A DNA stretch of 35,647 nucleotides, taken from positions 1 through 35,647 of IMG/VR virus record IMGVR_UViG_3300027963_005060; one strand, given 5' to 3'. This document shows, in pieces, positions 5,237 to 27,885 of this stretch (positions are counted from its first letter, which is position 1; the number at the start of each line of letters is the position of its first letter). The notes under the pieces are model-generated. The model saw only the letters and a program-made list of their open reading frames with translations, was not told the DNA's origin and made no database searches. This DNA comes from a virus. The position numbers and the translations under genes are program-made.

Positions 5237-6370
5237 TCAGGAACCTAGATTATAAACTCGGCTGCGCATAGTCTTAAATCCTTGACTAATGTTGTTTGGG
5301 TTGGCTTTCCACTTGTTGGGCACAACTTGCCACATGTGATCCAGTCCTGTGCGCCAAGAATATTTGACAGGATCGTTATTGGGCAAGTCAAAAATCCATG
5401 TGTCCCTTAGGCTAAAAATCATGCTAGGTGTTTTGAATTGATAAGGTACCGGATACCACCCGGGATAAATCAAACGGTGAAGCCCATTTGACGTCAAATA
5501 ATATTTTTTACCATTGATTGTGTTACACACCACATTACGTGGATCTGTAGTAATATCGGCACTGCCTGGTGTGACTGACTTCATGTATCGCTTGACAACG
5601 TGCCCTTGCTTAATTGGTATGTTGACTGCGTCTGGGCTCCAGTAAAACAATTCGTTAAAGTCCCAGGCCCGATTTAGTATCTGTGATTGTGCATTAACGG
5701 CTCCGTCAATTAGATCTATAAAATTGAAATAGTAATTTTGTTTGTGCTGATGCACATGTGGTTTGTCAAAGCCATGCACAAAACCAACTCGTTTGCCTGC
5801 GGTGATCATGTCACGCCAGTGCGCTTGGCTTAACTTGATATTGAGTCTGCTGACATTACATGGACCAAAATGAAAACTCATGTAATATATCCAATCAAAC
5901 TTGGATTCTTTATCTGAAAAGTAATCTATTTCAAGTCGGGTTAAGTCTACAATTGTGTGTTTTAGCCCGGGCTGTGTTAGTTGAGCCTGTGCTACTTTAG
6001 GTGCTGCTACATTAAAAACTTCAGCATTCATAAATCCTAGACGATCAGTGCAGGCTTCGTAATTGACGTAGCTTGCAACTTCATCCAGTTTGATATTGTT
6101 GTTGATGAAAGAATTCAGTACATTACTGGAGTCTGCACCGCCACTGAGCCACAGCACAACATAATCGTATTGATCTCTGATTTGCTGGGCCCGTTGTCGG
6201 TACAGCTCTTCAAGAGTTTCTGTAGGTTCCACTTGCCAGTTGAGATTGCTGTACACCTCTTGGTTGAAATTCCATTTCAACGGCATGCCCGAACGTTCGT
6301 GTTCCAGTATAGCTTCCAGCTTGCTGTAAAACTTCAGCTCACCAACTTGGTAAAATCCAAACTGATCCAT
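5237..6370 (-). CDS. PP-loop ATPase-like protein (copy 1)
   Basis: A 377-residue protein with the PP-loop pyrophosphatase motif LSGGADSS at residues 75-82, as in asparagine synthetase, QueC, ThiI and NAD synthetase. The N-terminal 70 residues (GFYQVGELKFYSKLEAIL, WNFNQEVY, LEELYRQRAQQIRDQYDY) and the motif match the protein at 17879-19063 closely, so the two are paralogues. No zinc cysteines of QueC or TilS-type tRNA domain is visible. The family adenylates a substrate using ATP; the substrate here is unknown. It begins 10 nt after the omega-like gene in one operon. A longer frame upstream to 6571 is rejected because homology starts at 6370. Confidence 0.8.
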   Translation of the reverse strand: MDQFGFYQVGELKFYSKLEAILEHERSGMPLKWNFNQEVYSNLNWQVEPTETLEELYRQRAQQIRDQYDYVVLWLSGGADSSNVLNSFINNNIKLDEVASYVNYEACTDRLGFMNAEVFNVAAPKVAQAQLTQPGLKHTIVDLTRLEIDYFSDKESKFDWIYYMSFHFGPCNVSRLNIKLSQAHWRDMITAGKRVGFVHGFDKPHVHQHKQNYYFNFIDLIDGAVNAQSQILNRAWDFNELFYWSPDAVNIPIKQGHVVKRYMKSVTPGSADITTDPRNVVCNTINGKKYYLTSNGLHRLIYPGWYPVPYQFKTPSMIFSLRDTWIFDLPNNDPVKYSWRTGLDHMWQVVPNKWKANPNNISQGFKTMRSRVYNLGS

Positions 6371-6380
6371 GTTTGTGATA

Positions 6381-6611
6381 TCAACGAACCTTGCGCAGGT
6401 ACTCCAGCCCCACCAGGCCCTGTTGCACATCCAGCAATGCTGACACTGGTGCATTGACATGAGTGGCCCAGTCATTTTGTTTCTGAGCATGTACCAGTTC
6501 TCGAGCACGAGCAGCAGCCACCAACACCAGATTGTAGCGACTGTTGTCAATGGCTTCCACACACTTTTCAAGATTTATCTGTGTGCCACGGCTGAGAGTT
6601 AGTTTGGTCAT
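6381..6611 (-). CDS. rpoZ: RNA polymerase omega subunit-like protein
   Basis: A 76-residue protein resembling bacterial omega: INLEKCVEAIDNSRYNLVLVAAARARELV (residues 12-40) corresponds to the conserved omega core (NRFDLVLVAARRARQ), followed by APVSALLDVQQGLVG, matching the region that contacts beta-prime. Omega helps assemble RNA polymerase and, in some bacteria, forms part of the ppGpp site. A phage copy could replace host omega to change polymerase behaviour. The gene is first in its operon behind a good sigma70 promoter and is followed by PP-loop copy 1 after 9 nt. Confidence 0.8.
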   Translation of the reverse strand: MTKLTLSRGTQINLEKCVEAIDNSRYNLVLVAAARARELVHAQKQNDWATHVNAPVSALLDVQQGLVGLEYLRKVR

Positions 6612-15139: not shown

Positions 15140-15165
15140 ATAGCTTAATTTCAATAGTTTGTCAA
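15137..15165 (-). promoter_or_regulatory. Sigma70 promoter of the 2OG-oxygenase gene
   Basis: TTGACA (15160-15165), 17-nt spacer, TATAGT (15137-15142). The -35 box overlaps the stop codon of ahpD. Confidence 0.85.
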
Positions 15166-15680
15166 CTGGCAACCACTCGGGCCACGGCTGTGATCACAGC
15201 AGCAATACGACCAATGTCACGTAGTTGTTCCATTGTGTAGCCTTCATTCTTCAACGTCTCGTAGTGAGCTTTCACACAGAAATGGCATTTGCCCACAATT
15301 GAAGCTGCCAAGCTGTAGGCTTCAAACAAGGCAAGAGTGGTACCACCATGTGTGCTGATGGCATTCATTCTCAGCTGTGCCGGCAGGCCTGTGAGATTTT
15401 CGTCTTTGGCCATTTCAACATAGGGATACCACACGTTGTTCATGGCCATCAAACTGGCAGCAGTGAGGGCAGCATCGGCCTGTGTCTTGTCCGAGATCTG
15501 ACTATGAATCCAGGTACACAATTTGCTATTGCCAGTGGCAAAGGCCGCTGCCAAGGCCACAGCTTCGGCCTGTTCTGGTGGCAACGAACTGCGCTTGATC
15601 ACAGCGTCAAGATTCAATCTAGTGTCCCGCGCATAGTCCGGGATACTGGATTCTTTGAGTGCGTCTACCCATGCAGTCAT
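15162..15680 (-). CDS. ahpD: Alkylhydroperoxidase AhpD-like protein
   Basis: A 172-residue member of the AhpD/CMD family. The redox site is complete: Glu120 in LFEAYSLAAS, Cys132-x-x-Cys135 in KCHFCVKAH, His133 and His139, matching the proton relay of mycobacterial AhpD. AhpD reduces AhpC and is itself a weak peroxidase. The gene overlaps ahpC by four bases (ATGA), so the two are made together. Length is normal. It probably helps keep the host alive under oxidative stress during infection. Confidence 0.9.
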   Translation of the reverse strand: MTAWVDALKESSIPDYARDTRLNLDAVIKRSSLPPEQAEAVALAAAFATGNSKLCTWIHSQISDKTQADAALTAASLMAMNNVWYPYVEMAKDENLTGLPAQLRMNAISTHGGTTLALFEAYSLAASIVGKCHFCVKAHYETLKNEGYTMEQLRDIGRIAAVITAVARVVAS

Positions 15681-16219
15681 TTCAGTGTGTCTCCACCAAC
15701 AGTACGGTTACATGCACACAGTTCGCCTGTTTGCAATGCATCCAACACACGCAAGGTTTCTTGGGGATTACGGCCAACGTTCAAATTGTTCACAGTAACG
15801 TGTTGAATCACATTGTCGTGGTCAATGATGAACGTGGCACGGAGTGCAGCACCGGCTGGAGCATAGAACACGCCCAGTTGTTCGATCAAGCTGAGTTCGC
15901 CTCGCTGGGTGTCAGCAAATTGATGATGGCGGATTTTTTTGAGATCTGGGTGTGCTTGTTGCCATGCCACTTTGCAGAACTCGTTGTCTGTTGAACCTGT
16001 GAGCAACACAGCATCACGATCTTCAAAGTCCTGGCTCAATTTGTCATAGGCCACAATCTCTGTGGGACAAACAAATGTGAAGTCTTTGGGATAGTACACA
16101 ATCACTTTCCACTTGCCTTCAAAGCTGGTGTCCGTGATGGTGTAGAAAGCGTCATCGGGCTGTCCGGGACGCACGCCTGTTACGGCAAAGGGTGTGAGTT
16201 GATCACCTACGGTTTTCAT
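15677..16219 (-). CDS. ahpC: Peroxiredoxin AhpC
   Basis: A 180-residue 2-Cys peroxiredoxin. The peroxidatic site is DFTFVCPTEI with Cys51, with Thr48 and Arg127 (ALRATFIID) completing the active site. The C-terminal ELCACNR supplies the resolving Cys168/Cys170. It reduces hydrogen peroxide and organic peroxides, with AhpD as the probable reductant. The start at 16219 is set by AAGGAG eight bases upstream. It is driven by a near-perfect sigma70 promoter. Peroxiredoxins are unusual cargo for a phage. Confidence 0.93.
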   Translation of the reverse strand: MKTVGDQLTPFAVTGVRPGQPDDAFYTITDTSFEGKWKVIVYYPKDFTFVCPTEIVAYDKLSQDFEDRDAVLLTGSTDNEFCKVAWQQAHPDLKKIRHHQFADTQRGELSLIEQLGVFYAPAGAALRATFIIDHDNVIQHVTVNNLNVGRNPQETLRVLDALQTGELCACNRTVGGDTLK

Positions 16220-16270
16220 TTGGGTTTCTCCTTGATAAAAAATAAGTCTCAGTGTTTGTACTGAGTACAT

Positions 16271-16300
16271 ATTATATATCAAAAAGAAACCTATTGTCAA
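16271..16300 (-). promoter_or_regulatory. Consensus sigma70 promoter of ahpC-ahpD
   Basis: TTGACA (16295-16300), 18-nt spacer, TATAAT (16271-16276); both boxes match consensus fully. A CTCAGT/ACTGAG hairpin lies in the leader. Confidence 0.9.
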
Positions 16301-16378
16301 CGCGTTTTCATAGTATTTTGCTATGATTGCGTCTAACTCGGCAATTGAAAAAATCAATAACACAGCATATTCAAAAGA

Positions 16379-16398
16379 ATGGGCCCCGAAGGGCCCAT
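16379..16398 (-). terminator. Terminator of the permuted tmRNA gene
   Basis: ATGGGCCC pairs with GGGCCCAT around a TTCG tetraloop (minus strand), followed by TCTTTTG. Confidence 0.88.
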
Positions 16399-16581
16399 CT
16401 GCTATTTTGGGTCACAAGGTATAACTACCTCGCTCTCAGGCGTTTGCTGCCAAGAGGAATGTATCGTCGTTTGCGATTACTTTTTTTGCTTCTACAACCG
16501 AGTTTCCCCAGTCCTACGGCTTCTGCATTGCCGAACTGTCCATTTCATTACTCTTGACCCTGTCGAAACTTTGTCAGGCCC
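16399..16581 (-). ncRNA. ssrA: tmRNA coding piece (permuted ssrA, 3' part of the gene)
   Basis: The piece starts at 16581 with GGGCCTG and continues AC AAAGTTTCGACAGGG, the conserved tmRNA D-loop region. A pseudoknot-rich stretch leads to GTAATC-GCA-AAC-GAC-GA, nearly identical to the Escherichia coli upstream element and resume codon. The tag frame (16436-16474) reads ANDDTFLLAANA then TGA. GGGCCTG pairs completely with CAGGTCC of the acceptor piece, with G3-U70, the alanine identity pair. CAGGGTC (16556-16562) pairs with GATTCTG of the acceptor piece as helix P2. tmRNA rescues stalled ribosomes and tags the products. The exact 3' end is unknown. Confidence 0.93.
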
Positions 16582-16593
16582 ATCATAAAAAGT

Positions 16594-16854
16594 CTATTTC
16601 GAACAGTAAGTTTCCTTACATGTCGAACAAGAAATGTCTAATAGTTTAATATCAAATACCGACATTTCTAAATGATTACAACACTTATCTTTACAGTTAG
16701 CACAATCTAAATTACCAAGTGCATCATAAACACATTTAGTTTCTGAACAAAACATTCCTGTATTTCTATTAGGAAAGTTTCTACAACAACTAGGACGAGT
16801 TTCATAAATGCTACAAAGTTCGTCAGCGTTTAAGTAAGGACATCTTATACTCAT
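16594..16854 (-). CDS. YkgJ-like Cys-rich protein encoded inside the tmRNA intervening segment
   Basis: An 86-residue protein with 14 cysteines. RCPYLNADELCSIYETRPSCCRNFP is the YkgJ-family signature (CPxLxxxxxCxIYxxRPxxCRxFP), thought to bind zinc or an Fe-S cluster. Further pairs (FCSETKC, CANCKDKCC, CSTCKETYC) extend it. The ATG at 16854 follows AGAGG and lies 11 nt after the CCA of the tmRNA acceptor piece; the stop lies 12 nt before the first base of the coding piece. The gene therefore fills the segment that processing removes. The frame is also open upstream through the acceptor piece, which I consider fortuitous. Confidence 0.8.
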   Translation of the reverse strand: MSIRCPYLNADELCSIYETRPSCCRNFPNRNTGMFCSETKCVYDALGNLDCANCKDKCCNHLEMSVFDIKLLDISCSTCKETYCSK

Positions 16855-16865
16855 TAAACCTCTTA

Positions 16866-16934
16866 TGGTGGACCTGGGCGGTACTGCCCCGCCGTCCAGA
16901 ATCCTTTTCAATCTACTTCATACAGTCATAGCAA
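16866..16934 (-). ncRNA. ssrA: tmRNA acceptor piece (permuted ssrA, 5' part of the gene)
   Basis: From the predicted transcription start near 16934 the RNA runs into GATTCTG (helix P2), a T-stem GGCGG/CCGCC, CAGGTCC, A73 and an encoded CCA (16866-16868). The T-loop is GGCAGTA, lacking TTCRA; I recall similar GGGCAGTACC-type loops in permuted alphaproteobacterial tmRNAs. The acceptor arm is that of an alanine tRNA. Its length (up to about 70 nt) fits known two-piece tmRNA acceptor RNAs. Confidence 0.9.
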
Positions 16935-16940
16935 GTATTT

Positions 16941-16969
16941 ATTATACATTACATTGTTTGCAATGTCAA
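16941..16969 (-). promoter_or_regulatory. Consensus sigma70 promoter of the tmRNA gene
   Basis: TTGACA (16964-16969), 17-nt spacer, TATAAT (16941-16946): a full consensus match, as expected for an abundant stable RNA. The -35 box overlaps the stop codon of the TTT binding-protein gene upstream. Confidence 0.92.
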
Positions 16970-17859
16970 TTGGCATTGTTGATTTTTGATTGATACTTGT
17001 TCTGTAACTTTTCAACCAACTGAAAGGAGTCACGATAAAACTCCTCCGCACCAACTCCGTCAAACACAGGTGGGCGAGTTGCTGACAGCTCAAAAATTTC
17101 CTGAGCACCAATATTTTTTGTAGCTGTGTTTAGTATGTCAGCAATGGCAACTCTTCTGGCCCGTGGCATGAGTCTATGCGCCACAGTTATATTGAAAACA
17201 TAGGGTGCCGAGACACCCTGTTCTGCCAGTGTTTTAATCCCGGGCTCTTGTGGCAAACGAGAGGGGCAACTGGCAGCAATCATGCGCATGCGAGGATTTT
17301 TGGTTTTGAGAGCTTGATAGCTTTCGTATTTGTCAATCACAAATTCAACACCATTGTTGCCGGTCATGTTTACCAAGGCGTCGTTGTTGGATTTGAACAA
17401 GATATATCTCACATCGAACCCGTGTTTTTCGCTCAGGGCCAAGGCAGTCAGATGTGTGGCATTTCCTGTACCCACCCCTCCTACTACAAATTCCTTGGCG
17501 CCGGTCATGGGTTTGTTTGTGATCACCGCCCAGCAGGCAGCGCCAAATGCATGAACAGGCACATAGTCTTGTTCAGTCAACTTGCCAGATCTGACATTTT
17601 CCACAAATGCCGGTGCAATGATGGCCAAGCTGGTTTCGGGTTCCATGGACCGCAAAGCAATCGTTTGATTGCCTCCTGGGCGAAATTCCACTTGAAATCT
17701 ATAGATTGACTGACTGGCGTTGGCCTGCTCAACCACTCGGAACAAGGCCGGTGTTGCGCTATGTGCAGCATTGTATGGTGAATAAATCTTGATTGTTTCG
17801 GTTGCCGCAGCAGATAGTGCACACACAGACAACATTGCAATCAACCATGATTTAAACAT
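16966..17859 (-). CDS. TTT/Bug-like periplasmic solute-binding protein (copy 2)
   Basis: A 297-residue protein with a signal peptide (MFKSWLIAMLSVCALSAAA) and the Bug-type two-lobe organisation: IKIYSPYNAAHSATPALFRVVEQAN, VEFRPGGNQTIALRSM (equivalent to the usual RPGAGG loop), then VVGGVGTGNATHLTALALSEKHG. It is more divergent than copies 1 and 3. In bacteria these proteins feed TctAB transporters; none is seen here. It follows the PP-loop gene by about 20 nt in a four-gene run with copy 3 and the broken DctP-like gene. Its stop codon lies in the -35 box of the tmRNA promoter. Confidence 0.78.
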   Translation of the reverse strand: MFKSWLIAMLSVCALSAAATETIKIYSPYNAAHSATPALFRVVEQANASQSIYRFQVEFRPGGNQTIALRSMEPETSLAIIAPAFVENVRSGKLTEQDYVPVHAFGAACWAVITNKPMTGAKEFVVGGVGTGNATHLTALALSEKHGFDVRYILFKSNNDALVNMTGNNGVEFVIDKYESYQALKTKNPRMRMIAASCPSRLPQEPGIKTLAEQGVSAPYVFNITVAHRLMPRARRVAIADILNTATKNIGAQEIFELSATRPPVFDGVGAEEFYRDSFQLVEKLQNKYQSKINNAN

Positions 17860-17878
17860 AATATTTGCTTTCGTACAT

Positions 17879-19063
17879 CTAAAATTTAAAGTGATCATTT
17901 ATACCAGTGCTTTGATACGCAGCAGGTCCCAGTTTGTAAAACGGACTGATGAACCCCACAAAGCCCACTGGTCTTCCCATCTCGTTGTTGAAATACTTGG
18001 GGTCTATGTTTTTGACCAAGTGATCCAGGCCGGCCTTCCATACTTGATATGCACGAGTTTGGGAAAAGTTCTGATAAAACCACTGATCCATTTCGTTGTA
18101 GAAACTGTTGGTGGGCTTGGAGGTTTGAAATGTGGCCGGATCATAGTCGGGATACAGCAAGGGTTTGATGATGTGTTCAAACGTGGTTCGCTGTGCAAAA
18201 CTGTAGTTGGGCCAGCGAGCCAGGTGCTGCAGGTATTTGTTGTGGGGCAAATCAAACCAGTTTTTGATCACGTGCGCTTGTTTGCACAACAGTTCGGGCA
18301 GGTCTGGAGTCCAATAAAAATACTCGTTGGTGATGTTGTCCCACGCGCCTACTTCGGGATTGGCATTGTTGGCCTGCACGTCCATGAAGTAGAGATACCA
18401 GGTTTGGTCACGGATACAGACCTTGGGCTTGTCTACCCCCCACAGCATGCACACCCGCAGTCCCTGGTCCAGGGTGTGTTTGTGAGAATCTACTGCATCC
18501 ACCGTGTGTTTGAATGCATGACCCGGTTGAAAATAGTCCTTGGTTCTAAACACCCAGTCTTCGTCATGCCCGGATGTCAGCATGTCCTCACTATAGTCAT
18601 GAATGGTTATGCGAGTACGCGGAGCATGAGTAGAAATCCATTGTAACAATGGTTGTGCTGCATAGCGCCATTCACTGAGAGTGTTTTCGGGCTTGGTGTT
18701 GAATGGATCATCGGTGACATTTTTTTCGCCGGTCTTGGGATAGCGAAAAACCACTTCGTCGAGATGGATACCGTTGTTGATAAAGCTGTAAGCAGCAGTA
18801 CTAGAGTCACCTCCGCCACTGACTTCCAGTCTGATATAATCATACTGATCTCTCAATTGCTGTGCTCGCATGCGATACAATTCTCTCAGAGAGATTGTGG
18901 GCTCCACGTGCCATGTGTAGTGATCAAACACAGACCGATTGAAATTCCACTCCGGAAACTGATTGGTCTGTGTGGCTGCAATCAAGGCCTTGGGTTTGAC
19001 GTAGTGCCGTTCTTGACCAACGGTATAAAACCCCAGCTTGTTGTTTTTTTCAAGTTTGATCAT
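17879..19063 (-). CDS. PP-loop ATPase-like protein (copy 3, paralogue of copy 1)
   Basis: A 394-residue protein with the PP-loop motif VSGGGDSSTAAYSF (motif at residues 82-88). Its first 100 residues match the protein at 5237-6370 nearly line for line: GFYTVGQERHYVKPKALIAA, WNFNRSVFDHYTWHVEPT, LRELYRMRAQQLRDQYDYI and INNGIHLDEV. It also shares VDKPKV (copy 1: FDKPHV) and a YFYWTPD block. PP-loop enzymes activate substrates with ATP to AMP; the substrate is unknown. It sits between two TTT binding-protein genes, which hints at a link between solute binding and this enzyme family. Confidence 0.8.
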   Translation of the reverse strand: MIKLEKNNKLGFYTVGQERHYVKPKALIAATQTNQFPEWNFNRSVFDHYTWHVEPTISLRELYRMRAQQLRDQYDYIRLEVSGGGDSSTAAYSFINNGIHLDEVVFRYPKTGEKNVTDDPFNTKPENTLSEWRYAAQPLLQWISTHAPRTRITIHDYSEDMLTSGHDEDWVFRTKDYFQPGHAFKHTVDAVDSHKHTLDQGLRVCMLWGVDKPKVCIRDQTWYLYFMDVQANNANPEVGAWDNITNEYFYWTPDLPELLCKQAHVIKNWFDLPHNKYLQHLARWPNYSFAQRTTFEHIIKPLLYPDYDPATFQTSKPTNSFYNEMDQWFYQNFSQTRAYQVWKAGLDHLVKNIDPKYFNNEMGRPVGFVGFISPFYKLGPAAYQSTGINDHFKF

Positions 19064-26251: not shown

Positions 26252-27106
26252 TTATTTGCCCCAACCGTTGCCCCAAAGATCCACGTGCATTCTGGGACTG
26301 TAGTTGTAGCATTGGGTCAGTGCCCAGTTGGCCACTTGCACTCGATTTTGCTCATAGGGTGTGACCACACCACCCTGTGGCATCACATACACTTTGCCGA
26401 TGAAACCAGCTGCACGATATTCGCTCACAGCTTGGTTGACTTCTTCAAAGTGTTGTTCAGTCTCTACCACAAACTTGAGATACACCCGACCCAGGTCTTG
26501 ATAGCTGGCAACCACACTGGGTCGAATGGCTTCACTCCAGGTTTCGCCACTGGCACTGAGCTTGGGACTCACACTGAATGTGAGTTCAGTGTAGCCATTG
26601 CTCCAACGATGCAGATAGTCAGCAAATGCATCATCAATGGTTTGAGTACCGTTGGTTTCGAATGTGAGATTTTCAAGATCACGCATGCTGGGATTTTCCA
26701 GCAGTTCGGGATAGGCTCGCTGCCAACCCAGGAGTGGTTCTCCGCCGGTGATCACCAAGTGTATGTCGTTGCCATTGGGCTGTGACCACTTGCCATTGGG
26801 AATCATGCCTGTCATGCGTGACACCAGGGTTTGGGTAGTCTCACCAGGGCTGAGTTCTTTGAATGCCGGATGCCAAGAAGCATAGCTGTCACAGCCAGTT
26901 GTGACCAGGGGCAAGTCTTCAAATCGATTGAACATGTGTGCCACTGTGGCAATTTCATCAGCTTCGTCGCTGCGTTTGCCAGGTGCACAGCCAAAGCTGC
27001 TGCAAGTGAAATTGCAACCAAATGTTCTCAAGAACACACTGGGCACACCCACAAAACGGCCTTCGCCTTGTAGACTGTAAAATATTTCAGAAACTTTGAT
27101 TTTCAA
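26252..27106 (-). CDS. queE: 7-carboxy-7-deazaguanine synthase QueE-like radical SAM enzyme
   Basis: A 284-residue QueE: KVSEIFYSLQGEGRFVGVPSVFLRTFGCNFTC, with Cys31 and Cys35 spaced CX3C as in the radical-SAM loop. The third ligand is either Cys40 (CX4C, unusual) or Cys72 in TGCDSYASWHP. Further on: LVITGGEPLLGWQRAYPELL, FETNGTQ and SVSPKLSASGE. It makes CDG for queuosine or 7-deazaguanine DNA bases. The TTG start at 27106 overlaps the methyltransferase TGA; an ATG at 27136 is an alternative. Confidence 0.88.
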   Translation of the reverse strand: MKIKVSEIFYSLQGEGRFVGVPSVFLRTFGCNFTCSSFGCAPGKRSDEADEIATVAHMFNRFEDLPLVTTGCDSYASWHPAFKELSPGETTQTLVSRMTGMIPNGKWSQPNGNDIHLVITGGEPLLGWQRAYPELLENPSMRDLENLTFETNGTQTIDDAFADYLHRWSNGYTELTFSVSPKLSASGETWSEAIRPSVVASYQDLGRVYLKFVVETEQHFEEVNQAVSEYRAAGFIGKVYVMPQGGVVTPYEQNRVQVANWALTQCYNYSPRMHVDLWGNGWGK

Positions 27107-27885
27107 ATTTTTCTCGCTTTGACCAACAAATGCCAACCCAGATATTCTCTCACTGCTTCACGCATGGCCTCGGGCATGGCCGCAAACCAAGGCTCCAGTT
27201 CATATCGCCCGGCTTTGTACGCTTCTATATTATACATGAAACAGTGGTCTTGACGCAACCTGTCGATTTGAAATCGGTTGCCCAGCAAGTCATGTATTTC
27301 GTGTTTGGTATAGCTCTTGGCATAGGGACAACCGTTTTGTGCTTCATACTGGTCCAGGCCCTTGAAGATCATGGCCTGCTTCCAGGAGTTCTTGGCATAC
27401 ACCATGAAACGGAATTCTCCGCCTGGCTTGAGTGCTGCATACACATTGTCGATGATCTGCTCTATGGCCGGAAAGTGATGTATTACACCATAGCTGTATA
27501 CCAGATCAAATTCATGATCAGGATAGTCTTGAGCGTTGCTAGCATCACCGCGGATAAAGGTGCCTTCTAGTCCCTCCACTTCAAATCGCTTTTGTGCCAG
27601 TTTTACGCTTTCATCACTGTAGTCCAAGCCAGTGTACACAGCACCATGTCGAGCAAATTCAGCTGCGTCCGACCCAATGCCGGGTCCAATCTCCAGCACC
27701 TGTTGACCTTGCCAGAGATGGAATCCAGCAAATTCTGCAATGTGTGGCTCCACTCGATAGCGCCGAGCACTGACTTCTTGAAAAAATTCAAGTGTGCCAG
27801 GTTCACCGCGACCGTGGCGGATGTTGCAGGGTTGTGTGTTCCAGTAGCGGCGTATGCGTTGTTCTAGTGATTCTGTTGTGTTCAT
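27103..27885 (-). CDS. Class I SAM-dependent methyltransferase
   Basis: A 260-residue methyltransferase with motif I VLEIGPGIGSDAAEFARHGA, motif II YTGLDYSDESVKLAQKRF, FIRGDASN (motif III) and the post-motif YSYGVIHHFPAIEQIIDNVYAALKPGGEF (motifs IV-VI). The substrate is not evident; the neighbours (glycosyltransferase overlapping by four bases upstream, QueE downstream) suggest a sugar or a nucleoside. The C-terminal 80 residues form a family-specific cap. It is cytoplasmic, with no signal peptide. Confidence 0.88.
   Translation of the reverse strand: MNTTESLEQRIRRYWNTQPCNIRHGRGEPGTLEFFQEVSARRYRVEPHIAEFAGFHLWQGQQVLEIGPGIGSDAAEFARHGAVYTGLDYSDESVKLAQKRFEVEGLEGTFIRGDASNAQDYPDHEFDLVYSYGVIHHFPAIEQIIDNVYAALKPGGEFRFMVYAKNSWKQAMIFKGLDQYEAQNGCPYAKSYTKHEIHDLLGNRFQIDRLRQDHCFMYNIEAYKAGRYELEPWFAAMPEAMREAVREYLGWHLLVKARKI

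Follow-up and report, generated by a model that had tools for sequence, protein, structure and literature searches.

The window analysed here, the whole 35,647-nucleotide stretch of virus record IMGVR_UViG_3300027963_005060 (35.6 kb, with 13 tRNA genes), probably carries a phage-encoded, circularly permuted two-piece tmRNA in which the spacer serves as a slot for a protein gene. Phage tmRNAs hold many different cargos at this recurrent site, and the gene found here is one of them. Permuted tmRNA is known, phages included (Melnitz, PMC9004378), but protein genes in its spacer appear to be new, no report of one having been found in the literature searched, which covered few subscription papers. 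A 2025 tmRNA database paper describes one spacer with a tRNA-Ala and another with a repetitive element only (PMC11915505), and S. meliloti sORF64 was rejected as a precedent because that frame contains the tag itself (PMC10117765).

The tmRNA locus and its insert

A covariance-model search with Rfam RF04321 (tmRNA_permuted) matched positions 16927-16436 of the minus strand over the whole model (1-213) with one long insert, at 90.6 bits against a gathering cut-off of 47 (E 2.2e-16). This confirms the permuted two-piece tmRNA proposed in a preliminary description of the same DNA, RF04321 being a model of the tRNA-domain pairs only, without the pseudoknots of the coding piece. ARAGORN, when run on the window, made no call for the permuted tmRNA locus, probably on account of the long insert. 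The features of the locus are as follows.

16941-16969, minus strand: sigma-70 promoter TTGACA-17-TATAAT, 12/12 consensus
16866-16927, minus strand: tmRNA acceptor piece as modelled, ending in CCA at 16866 (the 5' end is that of the model, and the mature end may differ)
16877-16893, minus strand: T arm of the acceptor piece
16866-16876, minus strand: 3' strand of the acceptor stem, CAGGTCC-ACCA
16582-16865, minus strand: intervening spacer of 284 nt, from CCA to the predicted RNase P site
16855-16865, minus strand: 5' strand of the spacer helix, UAAGAGGUUUA, which includes the Shine-Dalgarno (SD) sequence GAGGU (16858-16862) and lies directly 5' of the ATG
16594-16854, minus strand: nested ORF of 86 aa, cysteine-rich, with a partial PF03692 match
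16586-16596, minus strand: 3' strand of the spacer helix, UAGACUUUUUA, whose first bases are the UAG stop of the nested ORF
16582-16585, minus strand: conserved UGAU facing ACCA (3/4 pairs), 5' of the predicted RNase P site
16436-16581, minus strand: tmRNA coding piece up to the tag stop, beginning with GGGCCTG
16575-16581, minus strand: 5' strand of the acceptor stem, GGGCCTG
16436-16489, minus strand: proteolysis tag frame, AKKVIANDDTFLLAANA and stop
16378-16399, minus strand: intrinsic terminator hairpin GATGGGCCC-TTCG-GGGCCCATT, then the tail CTTTTG

The preliminary description had placed the CCA at 16866, the coding piece from 16581 and a complete protein gene between the two pieces (16594-16854), and had noted the consensus promoter, the TTCG terminator and a tag frame in the coding piece, all of which agree with this anatomy. 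The same is true of the 7-bp acceptor stem, as GGGCCTG and CAGGTCC are paired at 7/7 positions in the window, with G3-U70, A73 and CCA present. The tag frame has an Ala resume codon and a stop. It ends in LAANA, instead of the LAA of most relatives, and judging from this end its degradation signal may be altered. The nested ORF fills 92% of the 284-nt spacer and has its own SD upstream (GAGGT). While the order of acceptor piece, spacer and coding piece, the acceptor stem, the ACCA and the tag frame are those of the known permuted two-piece tmRNAs (RF04321; alpha, beta and cyano types), the locus departs from them in its spacer, which encodes a protein and supplies an SD for it.

A comparison was made with Alphaproteobacteria, in which RF04321 scored above its cut-off in 263 of 289 cases; these searches replaced an earlier pattern scan of genome contigs that had yielded almost no permuted tmRNAs. 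Among the matches listed, and in 59 low-scoring genomes that were searched again, the RF04321 spans did not exceed about 350 nt, as compared with 492 in the window. No nested insert was seen among the alphaproteobacterial tmRNAs listed (Betaproteobacteria and Cyanobacteria lie outside the sample), and two of the longer spans, which we aligned, had spacers of up to about 115 nt in which no ORF was apparent by eye.

The two strands of the acceptor stem, one on either side of the insert, covary among the nested loci. When located by anchors outside the stem, the acceptor strands paired at 7/7 positions in all 24 distinct nested loci, which presented nine acceptor sequences (for example, GGGCCTG/CAGGTCC in the window and GGGCCCG/CGGGTCC in contig L007), whereas strands re-paired at random gave a mean of 5.5 pairs and never reached 7 in 2000 shuffles. 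The pairing thus passed the check by covariation in homologues that had been suggested for it. Moreover, the nested tmRNAs mostly carried tags of the ANDxxxALAA type (e.g. ANDEQFALAA or ANDSVYSLAA), ending for the most part in ALAA or LAA, the L399 tag not being cleanly resolved in this comparison. It is very improbable that the insertion left a decaying tmRNA pseudogene. Although the RF04321 score of the window is the lowest of its close group (90.6 versus up to 129 bits) and its tag end is unusual, covariation preserves the acceptor pairing, the tag frame is unbroken, the relatives mostly carry ALAA-type tags and the promoter matches the consensus at every position; the covariation and the tags led us to disfavour the pseudogene.

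Elsewhere in the window, ORFs at 756-1889 and 16966-17898 (minus strand) matched the TctC tripartite tricarboxylate receptor family (110 bits and, just below the cut-off, 25.9), an odd content for a phage, and the ORFs at 5237-6571 and 17879-19063 are related to each other (31% identity). Together, the two pairs suggest a duplicated gene block. In addition, a QueE-like radical SAM gene at 26252-27136 (minus strand; phrog_2076, E 1e-50) hints at modified DNA bases in this phage.

The nested cysteine-rich protein and its relatives

The 86-aa product matched PF03692 at 27.2 bits (curated cut-off, 23), but only over profile positions 45-77. PF03692 is the CxxCxxCC (YkgJ-type, putative metal-chelating) family, and we did not find its full domain in the usual order: the first half of the profile was unaligned and a CxxCxxxCC motif lies downstream of the match, so that the CxxCxxCC-like half comes after the matched half and not before it. 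Accordingly, the earlier label "YkgJ-like" is right for the second half of the profile, which scores above the cut-off, but not for the first. The cargo of the window is a cysteine-rich and probably metal- or redox-active protein. An AlphaFold model of it was unusable (pLDDT 42) and was set aside.

The search for the same nested gene in related phages, proposed in the preliminary description, was successful. Nine IMG/VR contigs encode a near-identical protein (92-100% identity), with full RF04321 matches of 90-129 bits around the ORF in L001-L007, and L008 and L009 show the same arrangement truncated, as they end inside the locus. L001 is 100% identical to the window over 700 bp, so that its record represents the same virus or one very close to it. 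A profile search disclosed the same nesting in L141 and L142, with a protein 80% identical. Other homologues are encoded directly upstream of a permuted tmRNA (L149, L150 and L085), and further ones are free-standing genes; no match was obtained when isolate phages were searched with the nested protein. The dN/dS values between nested copies of the window ORF were 0.06-0.35, which points to purifying selection on the protein.

Directly downstream of the tmRNA, at 15162-16363 on the minus strand, there are genes for an AhpC/TSA peroxiredoxin and a carboxymuconolactone decarboxylase (CMD, AhpD-like). Since L149 keeps the order CxxC gene, permuted tmRNA, AhpC (75%) and CMD (82%), this redox gene cluster and the tmRNA may move together.

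Nested genes in phage tmRNAs and their probable exchange

Pattern scans of IMG/VR, combined with a script that accepted only loci with all 7 acceptor pairs and all 5 T-stem pairs, yielded at least 272 distinct permuted tmRNAs. In the first scan, the pattern of which ignores the spacer, an SD-led ORF of at least 18 codons was present in 8 of 68 distinct spacers among the matches listed, and a non-redundant set of 120 spacers contained 15 SD-led ORFs, as compared with 1.4 expected from shuffles. Among the matches listed with spacers of at least 145 nt, a set also restricted to spacers starting with NAA, the ORF occupied at least 75% of the spacer in all 34 clusters, with a mean of 0.92 against 0.38 in shuffled sequences. 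The multi-member cargo families that we tested had pN/pS values of 0.10-0.58. The probability that the nested gene is an assembly artefact or a chance ORF is practically nil: the former was ruled out by the same junctions occurring in several contigs from different samples, and the latter by the purifying selection (dN/dS) together with the 34/34 coding clusters of long spacers among the matches listed.

The cargos include a thioredoxin in L495 (PF00085, 75 bits), a GNAT acetyltransferase in L533, a PGDYG protein in L475 and an HNH homing endonuclease in L124/L536 (phrog_655, E 2.6e-15), the latter being the only HNH-type cargo among those of the matches listed. From their sequences, the cargos of L399 and L534 resemble two-helix membrane proteins. 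The others are many uncharacterised proteins of 38-151 aa and hydrophobic microproteins of 19-29 aa, which call for caution as very short U-rich ORFs can look hydrophobic by composition. Microproteins of 22-24 aa (MNDDLTxLAIGVVVVLVVFALVLL type) were nested in many phage spacers (L067, L039, L121 and L390-L434), and the UGA stop of their ORFs ends 1 nt 5' of the predicted RNase P site. The MKYKIVV cargo, of 50 aa, has free-standing homologues in L378, L379 and L387, and this family is thus found both nested and outside tmRNA. In L395, L398, L404 and L466, the nested ORFs run into the tmRNA coding piece, the cargo frame overlapping the RNA.

All nested examples came from uncultivated contigs. 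The isolates XacN1 and QDWS595, which were examined, had spacers without an evident ORF, and they were the only matches in a search of isolate phages with the L039 region. A search of isolate phages with the L137 tmRNA region and four other cargos gave zero matches, and the thioredoxin matches that we opened in two isolates (DC31 and P26059A) were ordinary genes beside ribonucleotide reductase. The earlier reading of a full protein gene in the spacer stands but was incomplete, since many cargos share the site and the SD sits in a conserved helix.

The cargo appears to be exchanged between phages, since the spacers of L002, L006 and L007 were 96, 96 and 91% identical to that of the window while the coding pieces were 41-50% identical, and unrelated cargos have common ends. 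In fact, ten unrelated cargos displayed the near-identical ends TAAGGAAGTTTR...AGTTTCTTTATGAT. The 300-nt flanks of the same three contigs gave 16-35% identity with the window, which is alignment noise, and the host contigs share little else with it, except for the close relatives L138, L139 and L148 and for L132 (same virus). A conserved spacer with a diverged tmRNA was also observed in most pairs of other cargo families. Recombination in the common ends would be the simplest explanation, its direction and mechanism being inferred. Integron-type cassette sites, too, hold unrelated cargos flanked by common ends at a single location, but the common ends are here parts of the tmRNA precursor helix.

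It could also be argued that the spacer cassette is an invasive element of the homing type that uses the tmRNA as a safe insertion site, given that one cargo is a homing endonuclease and that spacers are common to otherwise diverged tmRNAs. In this regard, some tmRNA genes contain group I introns with homing endonuclease genes inside them (PMC11915505), and these are likewise protein genes in a segment removed from the tmRNA precursor. However, those cases are self-splicing T-loop introns, while here there is a permuted spacer, no intron and a mostly non-nuclease cargo. Rfam gave zero intron families, group I included, in the window at the gathering threshold, and most cargos are unlike nucleases or recombinases, the window ORF, which is PF03692-like and not a homing endonuclease, among them. 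We thus consider a selfish origin quite improbable.

The spacer helix and proposed processing of the precursor

The 5'-terminal 11-14 nt of the spacer form pairs with the bases 5' of the conserved UGAU, which in turn faces ACCA. Over 186 distinct end pairs, from spacers that were not chosen by helix although some scans did fix the last spacer bases, the helix had a mean of 10.1 uninterrupted bp, as compared with 5.3 in re-paired ends, which remained below the observed value in all 500 shuffles. The figures for nested spacers only were 9.2 and 6.9 bp, and about 24 of 83 nested spacers, mainly those of membrane microproteins, had an uninterrupted helix of just 5 bp. The helix of the window has 11 bp, in which UAAGAGGUUUA, with the SD inside and its last base directly 5' of the AUG, pairs with UAGACUUUUUA, where the stop codon comes first. 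In the MFE and centroid structures predicted for the window and L137 (z -2.7 and -3.1), the acceptor stem and the spacer helix were continuous. On the basis of the spacer-end pairing and these folds, the ORF would be the loop of a hairpin stacked by the acceptor stem, and, as the SD is paired in the helix, translation is probably restrained until the latter opens.

A bolder reading, to which we give a chance somewhat short of even, is that permuted phage tmRNA genes are a general cassette site in which maturation would excise a small mRNA, the SD hairpin would couple translation of the cargo to tmRNA processing and translation, and the cargo would be swapped by recombination in the precursor helix. 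In the explanation that we consider likely as a whole, a single transcript would start at the promoter, pass through both tmRNA pieces with the spacer between them and stop at the terminator, and would fold with the acceptor stem, the ACCA/UGAU pairing and the 11-bp spacer helix stacked and the ORF as the loop. Host RNase P, cutting at 16581/16582, and 3' processing after CCA would then free both tmRNA halves, and the spacer would be released as a self-contained mini-mRNA, the translation of the cargo being limited by, or coupled to, the opening or processing of the precursor. Through the conserved ends, recombination between phages could replace one cargo by another. Processing of a permuted precursor has been observed in Orientia by Northern blot and RNA-seq (PMC7335160).

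The preliminary description inferred instead that processing would destroy the message, in which case the protein would come only from the unprocessed transcript and the two products would trade off. As both the SD and the stop lie in paired regions of the precursor fold, the processing fold and ribosome loading should indeed exclude each other. However, the loss of the message was not borne out: CCA and the predicted RNase P site enclose the SD, the start and the stop codon alike, so that maturation would leave an intact 284-nt mini-mRNA, and the stop codons of many cargos end just 1 nt 5' of that site. We therefore regard this competition as unlikely. Another explanation, possible but on the doubtful side, is that the spacer is spare, insertion-tolerant sequence occupied by genes without a regulatory tie to tmRNA maturation. 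The high diversity of the cargo is consistent with it, as are the two families that also have free-standing homologues, but the fixed boundaries, the SD right after CCA, the covarying helix around the ORF and the near-identical ends exceed mere tolerance.

There is a realistic chance, judged on sequence evidence, that these loci represent a new class of dual RNA/protein gene. The spacer of two-piece tmRNAs, so far treated as discarded, is a recurrent home of small phage proteins, mostly uncharacterised and, as they overlap an RNA gene, easily missed in annotation, and the order CCA, SD, ORF, UGAU and coding piece provides a simple rule for finding new ones. Should the excised spacer be translated, an mRNA would arise from RNA processing and link ribosome rescue to phage protein expression, and the cargo slot offers a testable reason for the commonness of two-piece tmRNAs in aquatic phages.
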